This document shows, piece after piece, positions 1,547 through 10,539 of a stretch of DNA of 64,000 nucleotides. Location: the NCBI GenBank assembly GCA_025558095.1, contig JAIVFI010000031.1, positions 434,001 through 498,000 on the forward strand, in the 5' to 3' direction. The position numbers were made by a program, and so were the translations under genes. This stretch comes from Hyaloraphidium curvatum (lineage: Eukaryota > Monoblepharomycota > Hyaloraphidiomycetes > Hyaloraphidiales > Hyaloraphidiaceae). The notes under the pieces are model-generated. The model did not search any database. It was given only the letters and a program-made list of their open reading frames with translations, and was not told the origin of the DNA. Each line of letters begins with the position of its first letter. Position 1 is the stretch's first letter.

Positions 1547-2562
1547 ATGTCCGTTCCTTCCTACATTCCCGCCGCCCTGCGGCCGCAAATCCAGCGCTTC
1601 CTGGACTTTGGCGCGCGTGCCGAGTGGCCGGACCCGTTCCAAGCGGACGACGGCTTCCGCTCGGCCGTGCTCGTGCTGCTCGTCCCCGACGACCGCGGCG
1701 AGAACCTGGACGTGGTTCTGACGGTGCGGACGACCAAGCTGCGGCGGAACGCCGGGGAGGTGGCCCTTGCCGGAGGTGGGAGACGCGGCGCGTTAATCGT
1801 TGCCGATGCTGACCTACAATGAAAGGCCGGTTCGACGCGGCGGACAAGACGCTGACCGTCACTGCGCTCCGCGAGTGCGAGGAGGAGATCGGCGTGCCCG
1901 CATCGGCCGTCACGGTGCTCTGCACGCTCCCCGTGTTCATCTCCCGGACGTCGCCCAAAACCCTGGCCGACGGCGTGCCGTCCAAGTACACCAACCTGCT
2001 GATGACCCCCGTGGTCGGCGTCATGTCCCCCGCGGCATGGAATGGAATCAAGCCCAACCCGGACGAGGTCGCCGCCGTGTTCCGCGTTCCCCTGGGCTTC
2101 TTCATGGAGAGCTCGAAGGAGCACTCGGCCCTCATCTACCGCTGGCCCGAGCACAGGGACATCGTCGCCATCACGCACACTTTCCGCACCGGGACCGTGC
2201 CGGCGAAGGACATCGTTTGGGCCGAGCCGGCGCCCGAGGTCAAGAAGCTCACGCCCGTCGTCGGCGTGACCACGAACATTGTCGTCGTCGCGGCCGAGCT
2301 CGGGCTCGGCGCGCGATCGGGGATCCGGAAGGCCGTGGGCAAGGTGACCATCGACACGCTGCCGAAATCCAAGGAAAAGGACAGCTCGCTGCCGCCCATG
2401 GTGGAGAGGCTGCTGCAGGGTTTCTACGCAGGGGGGATGACTGAGGAGAGGAAGGCGGACATGATGGCGCGGCTGACGGGGCATTGGAAGCGCAAGGCGG
2501 GGGCGACGCTCGGGGAGGAGCGGGGGCTTAACGTCCCGCAGCTCCTGGAGAGCAATTTGTAG
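1547..2562 (+). CDS. Nudix hydrolase, coenzyme A diphosphatase type (PCD1/NUDT7-like)
   Basis: Two exons, 1547-1775 and 1826-2562, give 321 residues; the 50-nt intron begins GTGGGAG, has a CTGAC branch-like site and ends AAAG. Splicing restores the Nudix box: LRRNAGEVALAGG joins to GRFDAADKTLTVTALREC and then EEEIGV. The segment before the box matches the upstream motif (LR-x-H-x-GE-V-x-F-PGG) that marks CoA-type Nudix enzymes, although PGG is AGG here. Downstream, MTPVVGVM and NPDEVAAVFRVPLGFF match the usual C-terminal features. Known role: cleaving CoA or acyl-CoA into 3',5'-ADP and phosphopantetheine, often in peroxisomes or mitochondria. I see no clear C-terminal peroxisome signal (ends ESNL). 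An upstream ATG at 1427 is an alternative start. Confidence 0.85.
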
Positions 2563-2842
2563 ATCTGAAGCACGCGCGATGCTTTCGCGGCGTGATGGCG
2601 TAATATTCTTCCGACGCAAGAGCGTACAAGGCAAGGTAATCCGCTGCTTCGGTCCTGGATGTGGCGCGACGGCAAAATAATAATGATGGAACGCGGGCGG
2701 GTATCACGTCCTCGTCCCTCGGTCCCCCGGCCACTCGGGTATCCCCCAGGCCATCGAACGCAAGCCACACGGCACCCATCGGACCGCAATCGTTTCTGAG
2801 CGCCCGATCCCGCGCCTAACATGAGGTGACGCCGGGCACGCC

Positions 2843-4807
2843 ATGTCGGGCAAAACAGCGGTCCTCCGCGTCGTGGGGGTCGTCCCCGCCGGGGCGCCGG
2901 GGCTCGCGAATGCCGCGGACACATTGCAGTGGAGCCGTGCCCGGCGACGTCGTCCTCGGCGGGATTCGGATGACGAACGTACCGCTGTGGCGAAGGACGA
3001 GGACGCATCGGAGGGCGGCTATTCCTGGGACGACCTCGTCCGGCGCGCAGACGAATGGCGGGCCGAGCGCGAGGCCGCCGCGAGGGGCGGCCGGGAAGCG
3101 GACGACGACGACGCTTTTTCCGCGCCCGGGAGGATGGTGCTCGCAAACGGAGTTTCGGTGCCTGGCGGCGGTCCCACCATCCTGGAGTTCCTCTTCACGG
3201 CCATGCCGAGAGGCGCCGGGGCCGATGCCGTCGCCCAGAGGCCGCCGGACCTGCCGCGTGGACCCGCCCCGCTGCCGGGCCCGCCGGACGTGCTTCCGCG
3301 GGCAATGGCAGCCTTTTGGACGCCGCTTCATGTCCTGGTGCCCCTCATACACCGAACCGCTTTCGAAAGCGCGATTCGGAGCTCCAATGGGGTCGTCACC
3401 GGGGTCGCCGCTTCCATTTATCGGACACCTCCGCTCGCGCTCATGTACGCCATTGCTGCCAACGGGGTACGCTTAGTGCCCACCTTGGATGCCCACCAGA
3501 GGTTGGCGTACGCGGCCGCCTGCTTCGAACGGACGAGGGATTTGCTTCTGTCTCGCGGGCGCGATGACCTGGAATCTGCCCAGGCTATCTTCTTGCTCAT
3601 GGGTCTTTTGTACTTGGCAGGCGCCCCGGGCAAAACTTTGCCTCTGCTGAGGCGTTGTGTCGCGACGGCACAGGCGCTCTATCTGGGTTTGCCAACGAAG
3701 CGGCCCTCGAGCGCGGGGGAATGGCTAGCTCGGGACCATGTCCTCCGGCTTCGGATTTGCGTGGCCTGGATGGACTACGCCACCGCCTACAACACTCCGG
3801 GCGGGACGCACGCCCAGGGGTCGTACTTTTACCCCCACCGGCTCGAACTGCCGAGATCGGAGGCTTTCTACTGTCACGCTGATCCGGAGGAGGCTTTCTC
3901 CATGCTACAGCAGATGCACCCGGACCCGGAAGTGGTGGAAATCCCGGCGCACCACGGCTGGGACGCGGCCAAAGCAATATGCCACGACCTTGCGCGGGCT
4001 CCGTTCGGCGGGAACGCCTCGATTATGTGCCTGACCATGGCATTCGCCTTTGTCCGGCACATTGCGGTGGCGTCCCGCGGCACCAACAACGACACGCGCA
4101 TGGCGGCGCTTGCGATGCCGGCGCTCGTGGATGCCATGTGGTCGGCCTTTCCCGCTGACCAGCTTACCTCCCTTCGCTCGGGGGATCCGGGACCTTTTCT
4201 GGACCACTCGAACGAGTGGTTTCCTCATCCCTACCACGGATTCATGGCGATTTCGGCCCTGTTTTTCACGGAGGAGCACGCGTTCATGAGCCTGAGCGAT
4301 GGCGGCTTCTGGTCGGCGGCGGCGACCCGCGCGCTCCGTTTCGCGAGCATCCTCAAGATCCTCCTGGACCGGGATCCACACCTCGACTCCATCGCCTTCT
4401 TCGTCCTCGGGCCCATCTTTCGGGCCGGGACCGTGCTGCTGAGCGCCGTCAAGTCTTCCGGGGCTGCACTCCCCGGCGAGACCAGCAGCGAGAAGGCAGA
4501 ACGGAAGCGGCGCCTGCGCGAGCTTCGCACGGGGGCGCAGGCCGTCGCCCGCGCTCTGCACGGGCTGAACGAAATCTACGGGATGGCGGCGCGGCAGGTC
4601 GATGCGGCATTTGCGAGGATGATGGCCGAGGCGGGGTTGTCCGAGGCCAGCTCCTCTGCGATCGAGGTGCTTTCCGAGCTGGCCTCGGGCGCGGCCGAAT
4701 CCATCATCATGGATGAGGAGGTGCCGGACAAGGAGAGTGCGATGTGGTTCGCGGACATTCTGATGCGGGACGAGTCCGCAAAGTCGTCGTCGGTGGTGTC
4801 GAGATAG
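2843..4807 (+). CDS. Fungal-specific transcription factor domain protein lacking a zinc cluster (copy A)
   Basis: Single exon, 654 residues from ATG 2843. Roughly residues 150-300 show the fungal-specific transcription factor middle domain pattern: a tryptophan/proline segment with LVPLIHRTAFESAI, then SIYRTPPLALMYAIAANGV, then ACFERTRDLLLSR and ESAQAIFLLMGLLYLAGAPG, then an ATAQALYLGLP helix. In known members this domain follows an N-terminal Zn2Cys6 DNA-binding cluster; here the first 150 residues contain no cysteine at all, only an Arg-rich stretch (RARRRRPRR) and acidic runs. The C-terminus is acidic. It faces a close paralogue tail to tail, 102 bp away. Inference: a regulator that acts without its own zinc cluster, or a gene with an unrecognised 5' exon. 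No such exon is visible in the 280 bp upstream. Confidence 0.72.
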   Translation: MSGKTAVLRVVGVVPAGAPGLANAADTLQWSRARRRRPRRDSDDERTAVAKDEDASEGGYSWDDLVRRADEWRAEREAAARGGREADDDDAFSAPGRMVLANGVSVPGGGPTILEFLFTAMPRGAGADAVAQRPPDLPRGPAPLPGPPDVLPRAMAAFWTPLHVLVPLIHRTAFESAIRSSNGVVTGVAASIYRTPPLALMYAIAANGVRLVPTLDAHQRLAYAAACFERTRDLLLSRGRDDLESAQAIFLLMGLLYLAGAPGKTLPLLRRCVATAQALYLGLPTKRPSSAGEWLARDHVLRLRICVAWMDYATAYNTPGGTHAQGSYFYPHRLELPRSEAFYCHADPEEAFSMLQQMHPDPEVVEIPAHHGWDAAKAICHDLARAPFGGNASIMCLTMAFAFVRHIAVASRGTNNDTRMAALAMPALVDAMWSAFPADQLTSLRSGDPGPFLDHSNEWFPHPYHGFMAISALFFTEEHAFMSLSDGGFWSAAATRALRFASILKILLDRDPHLDSIAFFVLGPIFRAGTVLLSAVKSSGAALPGETSSEKAERKRRLRELRTGAQAVARALHGLNEIYGMAARQVDAAFARMMAEAGLSEASSSAIEVLSELASGAAESIIMDEEVPDKESAMWFADILMRDESAKSSSVVSR

Positions 4808-4909
4808 TTGCATTCGCATTCGCAGAACGAGCACTGTTCTTCCAGGCAAACGGCATCACATATAGGCTAGCGGAGCTCGATCCCTGCTGTCGCAACCCCG
4901 CCGAAGAGA

Positions 4910-6931
4910 CTACAGGAACACGGCGCTACCGACGTCCGAGAGCCTGCCCGACGAGTTGGCCGGCGACTTGCCGGCCTCCTCCCGCATGAGGACGTCGGCG
5001 AAAAACACCGCGGTGTCCTTCCCGGGCACATCCTCGTCCTCGATGGTCGAATCGGGCCCCGCGGTAAGGTCCGACGTCTCGTCGACCACCACCACCGAAC
5101 CCGACGCCTCCGAGACGCCGGCCTCGCGCATCAGCCGTGCGAACGAGGCGTCCACCGCCCTGGCTGCCATGCCGAAGTGCTCCGCGAGCCCGTTCAGCGC
5201 GCGCGCCACGGTCCTGACACCGCTTTCCAGGTCGCGCCGGCGCTGCTTGCGTTCCGCCCTCTCGCTCTTTGTTTCCCCGGGCAATGCGGGGCCCGACAGC
5301 GTCTTTGCGGCGCCGAGGAGCACGGTGCCTCCTTTGAACACCGCGGCGATCACGAAGAAGGGGATGGTGGCAAAGTTCGGGTCCCAATCGAGCAGGCCCT
5401 CCAGGATGGAGGTGAACCGGAGCACCCGTGCGGCGGCCGCGCTCTTGAAGCCGGCCTGGATCAGGGGCCCAAACGCGTGCTCTTCGACCATCAGGATGAA
5501 CTGAACCGCGACCGATGCGTGGTGGGGGTGCGCAAAGACGGAGCTGGAGTCGGCCAACAGCGGGCCGGGGTCCCCGGCGCGAAGTGGGCCGAGGTACTCG
5601 GGCGGGAAAGCATCCCAGAGCGAGTCGACGAGCGCAGGCATGGCCAGAGCGGCGAGACGGCTGTCCCCGGAAGCGCGTTCCGATGTTTTCCGGGAAGAGA
5701 TTTCCACGTGCCGGACAAACAAGTAGGCCAGGATCAGGGAAAAAATGGAGGCGTTGCCTCGGAAGGCTCTCCGCGCGATGTTACCGCAGATGGCCTTGGA
5801 TCCATCCCAGCCGTGCTGTGCAGGAATCTCCACGACCTCGGGGTCCGGATGCTTCTGCTGAAGCAAGGCGAATGCCTCCTCGGGATGAGCATGGAAGAAA
5901 TAGGCCTCCGATCTCGGTAGTTCGAGGCCGTGAGGGAAGAAATATGAGCCCATTGTTTGGGTTGCACCAGAGCTGTACGACGCTCCGTAATCGATCATGG
6001 CTGCACCCAAGCGCAGCCGCAGGACGAGCTCCCGCGCGATCCATTCTGCCGCGCTCTTGGGCCTCGTCCGTGGTAAGCCAAGATACAAGGCTTGCGCCGT
6101 GGCCACGGTCCTCCGAAGGAGGGGCAGCGTTTTCCCTGGAACCCCCGCCAGGGCGAGAAGACCGACTAGCAGGAAAAGAGCCTGGGCCGATTCGAGGTCG
6201 TCCGTCTGGCGAGACAGCAGGAGGTCCCTGCAGCGTTCGAAGCACGCGACTGCATACGCCCGCTTCTCCGCGGCATCCAGCGTGGGCACCAGCCGCACGG
6301 CGTTGGCGGCCATGGCGTACATCAGCGCCATGGGTCGAGTCCGATAGATGGAAGCGAGTTCCGGGGTGCCTCGCGAGGCGCCGGTGGTGCTTCCCGAGCC
6401 CCGCATGGCCGCCTCGAAAGCTGGACGATGAATCACTGGCACCACGACGTAATGATGAGTCCAGAATGCGGCCAGCGCCCGCGGGAGCACGTCCGGCGGG
6501 CCCGGCAGCGGCCGGGGCCCGTGGGGCAAGTCGGGCGGCCTCAGGGCGACGGCGTCGGCCCCGACGCCCCTCGGCATGGCGGTGAAGAGGAACTCCAGGA
6601 TGGTCGGGCCGCCGCCGGGCACCGAGACGCCGTTCGCGAGCGGCATCCGCGGCAGCGTGCCGTCGTCGTCGTCGCGGCCCTCCCGCGCGGCGGCCACGCG
6701 CTCGGCCCGCCACTCATCTGCGCGCCGCACGAGCGCGTCCCACGCATAGCCGCGCCCGTCACCGTCCTCGTCTGCTGGCGCGTCGGCCACGCCACCAGTC
6801 TTCGGCCGCCGCCGCGCGCGGCTCCACTGCAAAGTATCCGCGGCGCCCGCGAGCCCCGGCGGCCCGGCGGGCACGACGCCCACGACGCGGACGACGGCCG
6901 CGGCCCCGCCGCTCGTGTCCGGTACCGCCAT
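4910..6931 (-). CDS. Fungal-specific transcription factor domain protein lacking a zinc cluster (copy B)
   Basis: Single exon, 673 residues from ATG 6931 on the reverse strand. It is a full-length paralogue of the gene at 2843-4807: both start within a few residues of VRVVGVVPAG and share NGVSVPGGGPTILEFLFTAM, the GPPDVLPRA segment, the YRT-P-ALMYA helix, GKTLPLLRR and the C-terminal FADVLMR-like end. The frame stays open a further 100 codons upstream, but that extension has no counterpart in copy A and resembles random translation, so I place the start at 6931, matching the paralogue. It also lacks an N-terminal cysteine cluster. The pair is convergent, so each copy has its own promoter and they share a 102-bp 3' region. 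Confidence 0.72.
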   Translation of the reverse strand: MAVPDTSGGAAAVVRVVGVVPAGPPGLAGAADTLQWSRARRRPKTGGVADAPADEDGDGRGYAWDALVRRADEWRAERVAAAREGRDDDDGTLPRMPLANGVSVPGGGPTILEFLFTAMPRGVGADAVALRPPDLPHGPRPLPGPPDVLPRALAAFWTHHYVVVPVIHRPAFEAAMRGSGSTTGASRGTPELASIYRTRPMALMYAMAANAVRLVPTLDAAEKRAYAVACFERCRDLLLSRQTDDLESAQALFLLVGLLALAGVPGKTLPLLRRTVATAQALYLGLPRTRPKSAAEWIARELVLRLRLGAAMIDYGASYSSGATQTMGSYFFPHGLELPRSEAYFFHAHPEEAFALLQQKHPDPEVVEIPAQHGWDGSKAICGNIARRAFRGNASIFSLILAYLFVRHVEISSRKTSERASGDSRLAALAMPALVDSLWDAFPPEYLGPLRAGDPGPLLADSSSVFAHPHHASVAVQFILMVEEHAFGPLIQAGFKSAAAARVLRFTSILEGLLDWDPNFATIPFFVIAAVFKGGTVLLGAAKTLSGPALPGETKSERAERKQRRRDLESGVRTVARALNGLAEHFGMAARAVDASFARLMREAGVSEASGSVVVVDETSDLTAGPDSTIEDEDVPGKDTAVFFADVLMREEAGKSPANSSGRLSDVGSAVFL

Positions 6932-7227
6932 GCTGCAGTGGCAATCGGTCCCTTGCCGCGCGACGCCAGGGGAGTTGGGTCCAGACCGATCGGCTCCCCA
7001 ATCTCTCGCACCACTGGGAGGATGGAGGATGCGAAATGAATGTCTCCACGTCAATACCACAGTCTGCGACGCAATCATTAAACATTCCGACGGGATCGAG
7101 CTGCCTTTCGATGCAACAGACTCCCGCCTCGGCCGAAAGCGAAAGCTCCGAATATCCGATGCGGGGACCGCACACGCCGGGACCGAGGGACAGCTGGCCA
7201 TGAAGCACCTGATGCGCACATCCAAGC

Positions 7228-7860
7228 TCAAACGGGCTTCACCGCGCGTACATATGTCCGACGGGACGCGTGCTCGACGCCCGGGTACGGCTCGCGGACT
7301 TGAGCCTCCACCACGTCGAAGCCTGCGCTTGCGATCGCCCGCTCCAGCTCTCCTTCAGCGAACATGCGGAAATCCAGGCTCACAGGAACGCCCCACATCT
7401 CGCCCGGACGGATCGGCGCGTCGCCGAGGTGGGCAGCCGCGACGAGTTCCCCTCCTGGCTTCAGGCAGAGCAGGAGGGCGTCCAAGGCGCGTGCGAGCTG
7501 CTCGTCGTCGAAGTGAATGAGAGAATAGAACGCGATCGCGGCGTCGAAGCGTCCTGGCGACGCCCCGAGCCCGAGCAAGTCCACGATCTCGAACTGAAGT
7601 TCGGAATGTCGCCTCCGTGCCTCGGCAACCATGCCTTCGGACGCATCGAGCCCAACAGCACGGACACCCCGCGCCGCCAAGTACGCCGCCACGTGGCCCG
7701 GCCCGCAGCCGACGTCTGCGACGGTCCTCCCCGCCCAGCGCGCCGCGAACGCGTCGAGGAGGGCCCGGTCGAACGGCTTGCCGTCGAGCTCCGAAGACAG
7801 GTGCTCAGCGTATGCCGACGATAAGTTGCTGTAGTCTGCTGCCGTCTGCGCGGGATCCAT
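7228..7860 (-). CDS. Class I SAM-dependent methyltransferase
   Basis: Single exon, 210 residues. Motif I is clear at about residues 47-55 (VADVGCGPGHVA), followed by an acidic residue at the end of strand 2 (AVGLDASEGM), a mid-domain FDAAIAFYSLIHF and the post-motif LLLCLKPGGELV. This is the Methyltransf_11/25 fold, which methylates small molecules; no substrate can be deduced. Length and the Y-N-L-S-SAYAEHL start resemble bacterial free-standing methyltransferases, and there is no intron although most neighbours have several, so acquisition from bacteria is possible but not shown. It lies about 300 bp from copy B of the transcription factor pair, on the same strand, and is divergent from the sterol desaturase gene. 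Confidence 0.88.
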   Translation of the reverse strand: MDPAQTAADYSNLSSAYAEHLSSELDGKPFDRALLDAFAARWAGRTVADVGCGPGHVAAYLAARGVRAVGLDASEGMVAEARRRHSELQFEIVDLLGLGASPGRFDAAIAFYSLIHFDDEQLARALDALLLCLKPGGELVAAAHLGDAPIRPGEMWGVPVSLDFRMFAEGELERAIASAGFDVVEAQVREPYPGVEHASRRTYVRAVKPV

Positions 7861-9419: not shown

Positions 9420-9500
9420 TTGTCATTGGTGTGAATCGAGATCATTGCGTCCAAACTTGCGTGATGTGCTTCGCTACAGCACGCCCGATCTGTCGTTGAC

Positions 9501-10539
9501 TCACAACCTCCCAACCGTCTCTCCGACCTTGCTCTCGCCTTCGACGGTCTGGCCCCCGATTTCCGGCGTAAGGTATTTGTGCATCCTCCGGTTCTCCTGC
9601 CACATGTCGACCTTCCAGGAAACAGTGTATCAGCGCGAGAACGGCTAGTGCGGATGCTGGCCCTACCTTCATTACCTCGTTGAAGTCCTGGAGCTCCGCA
9701 ATGAGATCCGCTTCGACCTCCTTCTCCGCCCGCAAGACGCATTGCTTGGCCCGTGCAACGGCGTTTGGCTCGAACTTGGCCATCCGCTTCGCCAGCCGAT
9801 CCACATGTGCTTCCGCCTCTTCGTCGGAGGGGAAAACCCGGTTGATGAGGCCGTATTTCTCGGCAATGTCGGCCGAGAAATCGTCCGAGGATAGCAGGAT
9901 CTCCATAGCCCGTGATCGTCCGCAGAGTCGCGGCATTCGCACAGTGCCGCCTCCTCCCGGAATGATCCCGAGGGCGACCTCCATTTGGTTAAAGATCGCG
10001 TTCGGCCCAGAGAAGCGCATGTCCATCGCCTGCGACATTTCGCAGCCGCCTCCTCCGGCGCGGCCGTTAATGAGCGCGATCGTTGGCTTTGGCATCCGAC
10101 GAAGCGTCTCGGTCATTTGCTGCCCCAGGGTCAGAGACCAGCTACCGGCAGCGAGTTCCCCGGCCCTCATAACAGGCCAGTGGTTGTCCAAGAAGTGGCT
10201 GAAGCGACCAGAGGCACGATGAGACGAAGCTCCACTCTTGCGTCGAACGGAGCACACCCACACGTCAAAGTGAGCGATGAACCATCCCGGGACTTTGGAT
10301 TTCATGACCACGACGCGAACCGCGTCATCATTCGCCAGTTTTGGGATCACTTGGCAGGAATGCCTGCGAGTCAGGCCCGGGGATGCGGAAAAGGTGGCGG
10401 ACGGCGCACCGTCAATGAGCTCCCCGGCGAGCGCAGCCGTCATCAGGTTTATCGGAGGATTGTTGATGTAGATTGTCGCCACGCCCGCATCCTTGGTGAC
10501 CTCTATTAGATCGTAGGAGCTTTTCGCTGAGAATGCCAT
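9501..10539 (-). CDS. Enoyl-CoA hydratase/isomerase family protein
   Basis: Reverse-strand exons 10410-10539, 10262-10349, 9667-10198 and 9501-9611 give 286 residues. After splicing the crotonase core is continuous: a PPINLMTAAL start, VRVVVMKSK then IAHFDVHFLD, the oxyanion-hole stretch ALINGRAGGGGCEMSQAMD, and QMEVALGIIPGGGGTVRMPR, where the glutamate and glycine-rich loop sit at the usual active-site positions. C-terminal helices include WQENRRMHKYL. Known role: hydration or isomerisation of enoyl-CoA thioesters, in beta-oxidation or related catabolism. There is no clear mitochondrial presequence or peroxisomal tripeptide (ends VGRL). The short last exon supplies the final 36 residues. It is divergently transcribed from the thioesterase gene across 144 bp. 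Confidence 0.88.

Follow-up and report, generated by a model that had tools for sequence, protein, structure and literature searches.

A convergent gene pair of Hyaloraphidium curvatum belongs to a clade of transcription-factor relatives that probably lost the Zn2Cys6 cluster once

Two convergent genes on contig JAIVFI010000031.1 of Hyaloraphidium curvatum (assembly GCA_025558095.1), here called A and B, appear to encode fungal transcription factors from which the part that normally binds DNA is missing. Is the Zn2Cys6 zinc cluster truly absent from these proteins, and if so, what might they do? The genes lie in a window of 64,000 nucleotides (positions 434,001 to 498,000 of the contig), which is the whole stretch of DNA that was analyzed, and their relatives were sought in the rest of the genome. 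The coordinates of all features are collected in Table 1. Proteins of this make-up, known as MHD-only because the middle homology domain stands by itself, are common in databases. For 16,760 such entries a DNA-binding domain was recovered in 86% of cases, annotation errors, in which an overlooked upstream exon holds this domain, were put at more than 90%, and after correction about 4% of MHD proteins remained MHD-only (PMC10141177).

Table 1. Features of the A/B locus, in positions of the 64,000-nucleotide window.
Feature	Position	Strand	Remarks
Gene A, 654-aa middle-homology-domain protein without Zn2Cys6	2843-4807	+	single exon
Gene B, 673-aa paralog of A without Zn2Cys6	4910-6931	-	single exon
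Gap separating the convergent stop codons of A and B, 102 bp	4808..4909		
Upstream space of A, 280 bp, after a Nudix gene	2563..2842	+	cysteine cluster in no frame
Upstream space of B, 296 bp, before a methyltransferase gene	6932..7227	-	without cysteine cluster
A, N-terminal W-helix motif EGGYSWDDLVRRADEW, aa 57-72	3011..3058	+	predicted helix 62-82, pLDDT about 75
B, N-terminal W-helix motif GRGYAWDALVRRADEW, aa 59-74	6710..6757	-	
A, second N-terminal motif GGPTILEFLFTAMP, aa 109-122	3167..3208	+	
B, second N-terminal motif GGPTILEFLFTAMP, aa 107-120	6572..6613	-	
A, middle homology (Fungal_trans) domain, aa about 141-600	3263..4642	+	Cep3-like all-helical fold (predicted)
A, C-terminal acidic/aromatic motif DKESAMWFADILMRD	4727..4771	+	leave-one-out p 0.11
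B, C-terminal acidic/aromatic motif GKDTAVFFADVLMRE	4979..5023	-	leave-one-out p 0.013

An earlier note on this DNA had assigned the fungal transcription factor middle domain to both genes, and the assignment stands, on profile matches that are weak and on a match of predicted fold. For the pair, the Pfam profile PF04082 (Fungal_trans) scored 17.4 and 18.3 bits (E = 0.0025 and 0.0013). Both scores lie beneath the curated cut-off of 23, so the domain call needed further support. The profile was matched by 29 of 35 family members, and an alignment of these 35 members was used to build an AlphaFold2 model of A. Across most of residues 150-600 the model exceeded a pLDDT of 90, and it was disordered before residue 60 and at about 85-138, with one N-terminal helix between the disordered parts (Table 1). 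The middle homology fold of Cep3/CBF3 is a solved structure, and in comparisons with VIA-align the Cep3/CBF3 chains matched the model with Z of 15-17, about 360 residues being aligned between positions 131 and 610; the next-best unrelated helical repeat reached a Z of 13. Foldseek alone placed Cep3 low, and VIA-align put Cep3/CBF3 clearly first. A sequence search of the PDB gave no significant match. With the family-wide profile matches and the modeled fold taken together, the middle domain assignment for A and B is considered secure.

Searching the organism's own genome with B by tblastn gave 67 matches, which resolved into 55 paralogous loci once pieces had been merged and duplicates set aside. 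Given the frequency of annotation errors among MHD-only entries, for most of which the CeGAL study recovered a DNA-binding domain (PMC10141177), a cluster lying in a missed 5' exon was treated as the main rival explanation. The zinc-bearing relatives in this genome gave it further reason, as their cluster is often split by an intron. Raw genome DNA was searched rather than the annotation. A plain PF00172 scan detected the cluster of just 5 of the 22 zinc-bearing relatives and, because of the introns, was not used alone; a half-cluster pattern was added, and the DNA preceding the middle domain at each locus was searched in three frames both for a complete cluster and for either half on its own. 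By this split-aware search 22 of the 55 loci had a cluster and 33 did not. Of 23 sister genes, 22 yielded a cluster by this procedure, whereas none of the 32 genes of the clade to which A and B belong (described below) yielded a credible one, a difference that argues against the missed exon. The few pattern matches at zinc-less loci were more than 1 kb upstream or did not form a cluster. One of them, at L023, looks like a different zinc finger. In a genome-wide PF00172 scan, none of the 32 zinc-less genes had a same-strand match within 6 kb upstream, and no other DNA-binding Pfam domain was found among the 35 family members scanned. The state found is that of a true MHD-only protein, neither the gene nor the 1 kb upstream of it containing a DNA-binding domain; as regards membership among the Zn2Cys6-MHR (CeGAL) factors, the middle domain is present and the upstream Zn2Cys6 absent.

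The immediate surroundings of A and B agree with the genome-wide search. Their upstream spaces are cysteine-poor and not conserved between the two genes, the homology of A and B starts right at or behind the ATG, and the 280-bp space upstream of A could not accommodate a zinc exon of the usual size at the usual spacing. The reading frame of B continues open to 7201. In most members of the clade, moreover, a conserved N-terminal motif follows closely on the start Met, which also speaks against a missing first exon. Based upon the short upstream spaces (280 and 296 bp) and the homology that begins at the ATG, the zinc cluster is judged to be truly missing from A and B and not an artefact of a lost exon; that it sits in an overlooked exon is very improbable. 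The absence of Zn2Cys6 from both genes, as claimed in the earlier note, is thereby borne out by the split-aware search and the upstream spaces. The same note had named a spliced 5' exon encoding the six cysteines as what would overturn the claim, and such an exon was looked for in genomic DNA and not found. It was also correct that residues 1-150 contain no cysteine, in A as well as in B.

In a maximum-likelihood tree of the middle domains, a branch supported at 100/99 separated 32 zinc-less genes from the 22 zinc-bearing genes and one independent zinc-less gene (L042). The 32 genes stayed one clade (support 98/99) when 8 further MHR genes of the same genome were included as an outgroup; the root rests on these eight, of which 5 have an in-frame cluster and some are on long branches. 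The tree would derive the clade from Zn2Cys6-MHR (CeGAL) genes of its own genome. Given that the canonical arrangement is Zn2Cys6-MHR, the tree is most simply explained by one loss: the common ancestor of the clade probably lost the cluster, and the zinc-less line then expanded. With at least 32 genes, the clade accounts for over a quarter of the ~110 middle-domain loci of the genome (about 112 before removal of assembly duplicates), a far larger share than the roughly 4% of corrected databases (PMC10141177). Paralog counts are minimum or approximate figures, since only the best candidates receive a score in the genome search. Clade and motif results come from this one genome. The genome is 31.9 Mb in size, with about 69% GC in the loci taken. 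IFT57 had no match over the cut-off in it, weak evidence for the lack of a cilium.

Both ends of the zinc-less proteins carry recurrent motifs, instances of which were first spotted by eye and then tested with matrices that left out the tested gene and its close relatives. Close to the start of most clade proteins lies an acidic stretch, and after it the sequence W-x-x-[LIV]-[VA]-x-x-A-x-x-[WLY]. This N-motif was the best site and significant (p <=0.025) in 20 of the 32 clade genes, and significant in none of 21 zinc-bearing relatives. Its hydrophobic residues at 0, +3, +4, +7, and +10 form the pattern of an amphipathic helix, its flanks have a mean net charge of about -3 on each side, and its W is 7 to 38 residues from a Met in 20 of 22 cases. 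The helix predicted by AlphaFold2 near the N-terminus of A begins at this W. A second motif, around LL-[DE]-FLV, was seen in A, B, and a minority of the other clade members. An evident basic run resembling a nuclear-import signal was present in only three N-termini of the clade. At the other end, many clade proteins have an acidic stretch and then G-x-A-x-[FY]-[FYSA]-x-D-x-[LVA]-[LVM], about 1290-1505 nt past the start of the middle domain. This C-motif was significant by the leave-one-out test in 19 of 32 clade genes, five of them outside the definition of the motif (L006, L016, L017, L018, and L024), and in 0 of the 23 genes on the zinc-bearing side. About ten clade members are without one or the other end motif. 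The two motifs look alike in a few genes, for example L009 (FSWDGLVRG) and L014 (FSWDVLVDR). It was considered that they might be one and the same, but apart from these two genes the N-matrix reached significance at no C-terminal site of this kind, so identity is not claimed.

Taken together, these results favor, with a probability of roughly 0.6, a reading in which A and B are an inverted local duplicate within a lineage of at least 32 transcription-factor relatives that lost the cluster once and whose products would be co-regulators without DNA binding of their own. In this scheme the Zn2Cys6 head would have been lost a single time, before the expansion, and its place taken by a disordered acidic N-terminus with one amphipathic helix (W-xx-L-V-xx-A); most members also end in the acidic/aromatic tail motif. 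The middle domain would serve as the regulatory or sensing body. Since the end motifs resemble docking or activation segments, they may be docking sites for a common partner, likely either a DNA-bound Zn2Cys6 factor or general co-activator machinery. Co-regulation through protein contacts would be the most likely function of the clade proteins. A more specific form of the idea is offered tentatively and is considerably less certain: more than 30 proteins may use the same partner through the W-helix and the C-motif, their variable middle domains being interchangeable sensors, so that one loss would have given rise to a separate class of regulator.

Comparable proteins are known, and they make a co-regulator role plausible. 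The clade shares the middle homology domain with the CeGAL family (Zn2Cys6-MHR, PF04082; for example Gal4 and Cep3), but the Zn2Cys6 cluster is absent and an N-terminal W-helix and C-terminal acidic aromatic motif are found instead. FarD of Aspergillus niger has no Zn2Cys6, and the induction of a gene on ferulic acid depends on it (PMC10512302). Likened by description, it resembles the clade in having the middle domain without Zn2Cys6 and in having zinc-bearing paralogs, FarA and FarB (PMC10512302); unlike the clade, it is a single gene in Eurotiales, for which neither an expansion nor these motifs have been reported (PMC10512302). Dal81p and TamA act without the function of their own zinc cluster (PMC10169451; PMC4246892). 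They offer a model of a regulator that works with partner proteins and without its own DNA binding, and no membership is claimed, as they keep a Zn2Cys6 cluster that is dispensable for some functions whereas A and B have none. The domain make-up of the clade equals that of the database MHD-only entries; those are mostly annotation errors, whereas in this genome at least 32 of about 110 middle-domain loci truly lack the DNA-binding domain. The known precedents are single genes, and an expanded, motif-bearing clade is new. "Headless" factors have so far been mostly dismissed as annotation mistakes, which makes the clade unusual. With at least 32 zinc-less genes that have motifs of their own, the question becomes directly testable, and the W of the N-motif and the C-terminal F, D, and L are concrete residues to mutate. 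The clade suggests a route by which a transcription-factor family becomes a co-regulator family.

Two other functions were weighed. The proteins could have no part in transcription and use the middle domain anew, in cytosolic sensors or scaffolds for instance, as would suit the lack of a DNA-binding domain, the small number of obvious nuclear-import signals, and an N-motif core, W-xx-L, shaped like other short docking motifs such as those of autophagy receptors. Autophagy motifs are extended, however, and the N-motif is predicted to be helical; the acidic amphipathic and aromatic end motifs resemble activation or co-regulator segments, and the characterized MHD-only protein FarD acts in gene induction (PMC10512302). 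This function is accordingly held to be unlikely, at about one chance in five. A little less likely again is that the proteins are dominant-negative partners, which pair with full Zn2Cys6-MHR factors via the middle domain and silence them. The Cep3-like fold would allow this, and one clade gene, L008, is followed on its own strand, 229 bp downstream, by a zinc-bearing MHR gene. Such linkage is not general, with zinc-bearing genes within 10 kb of only 5 of the 32 clade genes, and selection for new end motifs suggests more than the loss of a domain. Dimerization in the Zn2Cys6-MHR family is mostly via a coiled coil beside the zinc cluster, and this coiled coil is absent in the clade proteins.

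The earlier note had described A and B as two long single-exon genes lying tail to tail, similar along their length and with VRVVGVVPAG near both starts. The coordinates hold, with 102 bp between the stops; pairwise alignment by blastp gave 64% identity over 643 columns (E = 0), and [VL]xRVVGVVPAG was found shortly behind the start in both. The pair has a dS of 1.15 and a dN/dS of 0.22. A and B are under purifying selection, and the high dS together with the low dN/dS marks them as an old duplicate retained by selection at the protein level. The further suggestion that the local inverted repeat gives rise to hairpin or antisense RNA did not hold up. Convergent genes with a 102-bp gap may have overlapping 3' UTRs, but the arms are only 69% identical at the DNA level (50% at third codon positions) and share no exact run as long as 30 bases; the gap gave no evidence of function, and the other close gene pairs in the clade are in the same orientation and not inverted. 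Control by RNA is thus highly unlikely, and the divergence of the arms is what one would expect if an inverted duplication of long standing had been maintained through selection on the proteins. Least credible of all is that these genes are decaying relics of transcription factors, for although the defining domain is lost and a few clade loci have frame changes, possibly introns or lesions, the coding sequences of A and B are long, open in frame, and intact, their dN/dS is low, the motifs are conserved, and the predicted fold is confident.

A second zinc-less gene carrying the middle homology region (MHR; Fungal_trans, PF04082), L042 (C42:124000-127700 in the fungus's own genome, G000), is independent of the 32-gene zinc-less clade. 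In the middle-domain tree it is placed among zinc-bearing genes, as sister of locus L038 (support 100/99), and it lacks the clade's N-terminal W-xx-L-V-xx-A helix. In six zinc-bearing relatives (L033, L036, L038, L043, L045 and L051) an apparent intron is directly followed by the second Zn2Cys6 half, so the cluster appears to be interrupted at a comparable position in each of them. When unspliced DNA was scanned simply for the domain, only about one quarter of the zinc-bearing relatives' clusters were detected.

The zinc-less clade gene L008 (G000 C28:513474-517883) has a zinc-bearing MHR gene 229 bp downstream on the same strand, and the two are a candidate regulator/partner pair. For the A/B pair, a tie to fatty-acid or CoA metabolism, suggested by its neighbours, is only a guess.

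Loci L038 and L052 (G000 C25:4352-29353) comprise two MHR genes, each present as identical mirror copies. The arrangement implies an almost perfect palindrome, about 25 kb long, near the contig end: either an assembly artefact or a terminal inverted duplication. On G000 contig C40, three Zn2Cys6 matches with identical scores (80236, 85427 and 90618) are spaced exactly 5191 bp apart, reflecting either a zinc-cluster gene in tandem array or an assembly duplication. A genome-wide PF00172 scan also placed tandem double Zn2Cys6 clusters within open frames at five G000 sites, an unusual arrangement among fungal zinc-cluster proteins.

Positions of mirror-copy genes, A/B neighbours and double-cluster frames
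Feature	Location	Strand
First MHR gene, mirror copies	C25 4352 and 28190	- / +
Second MHR gene, mirror copies	C25 15025 and 17611	+ / -
Nudix hydrolase (A/B neighbour)	window 1819-2562	+
SAM methyltransferase (A/B neighbour)	window 7228-7860	-
Enoyl-CoA hydratase/isomerase (A/B neighbour)	window 9442-10539	-
Double Zn2Cys6 frame	C26:535805/536012	
Double Zn2Cys6 frame	C35:28125/28266	
Double Zn2Cys6 frame	C35:41043/41199	
Double Zn2Cys6 frame	C16:611926/612073	
Double Zn2Cys6 frame	C8:235744/235972
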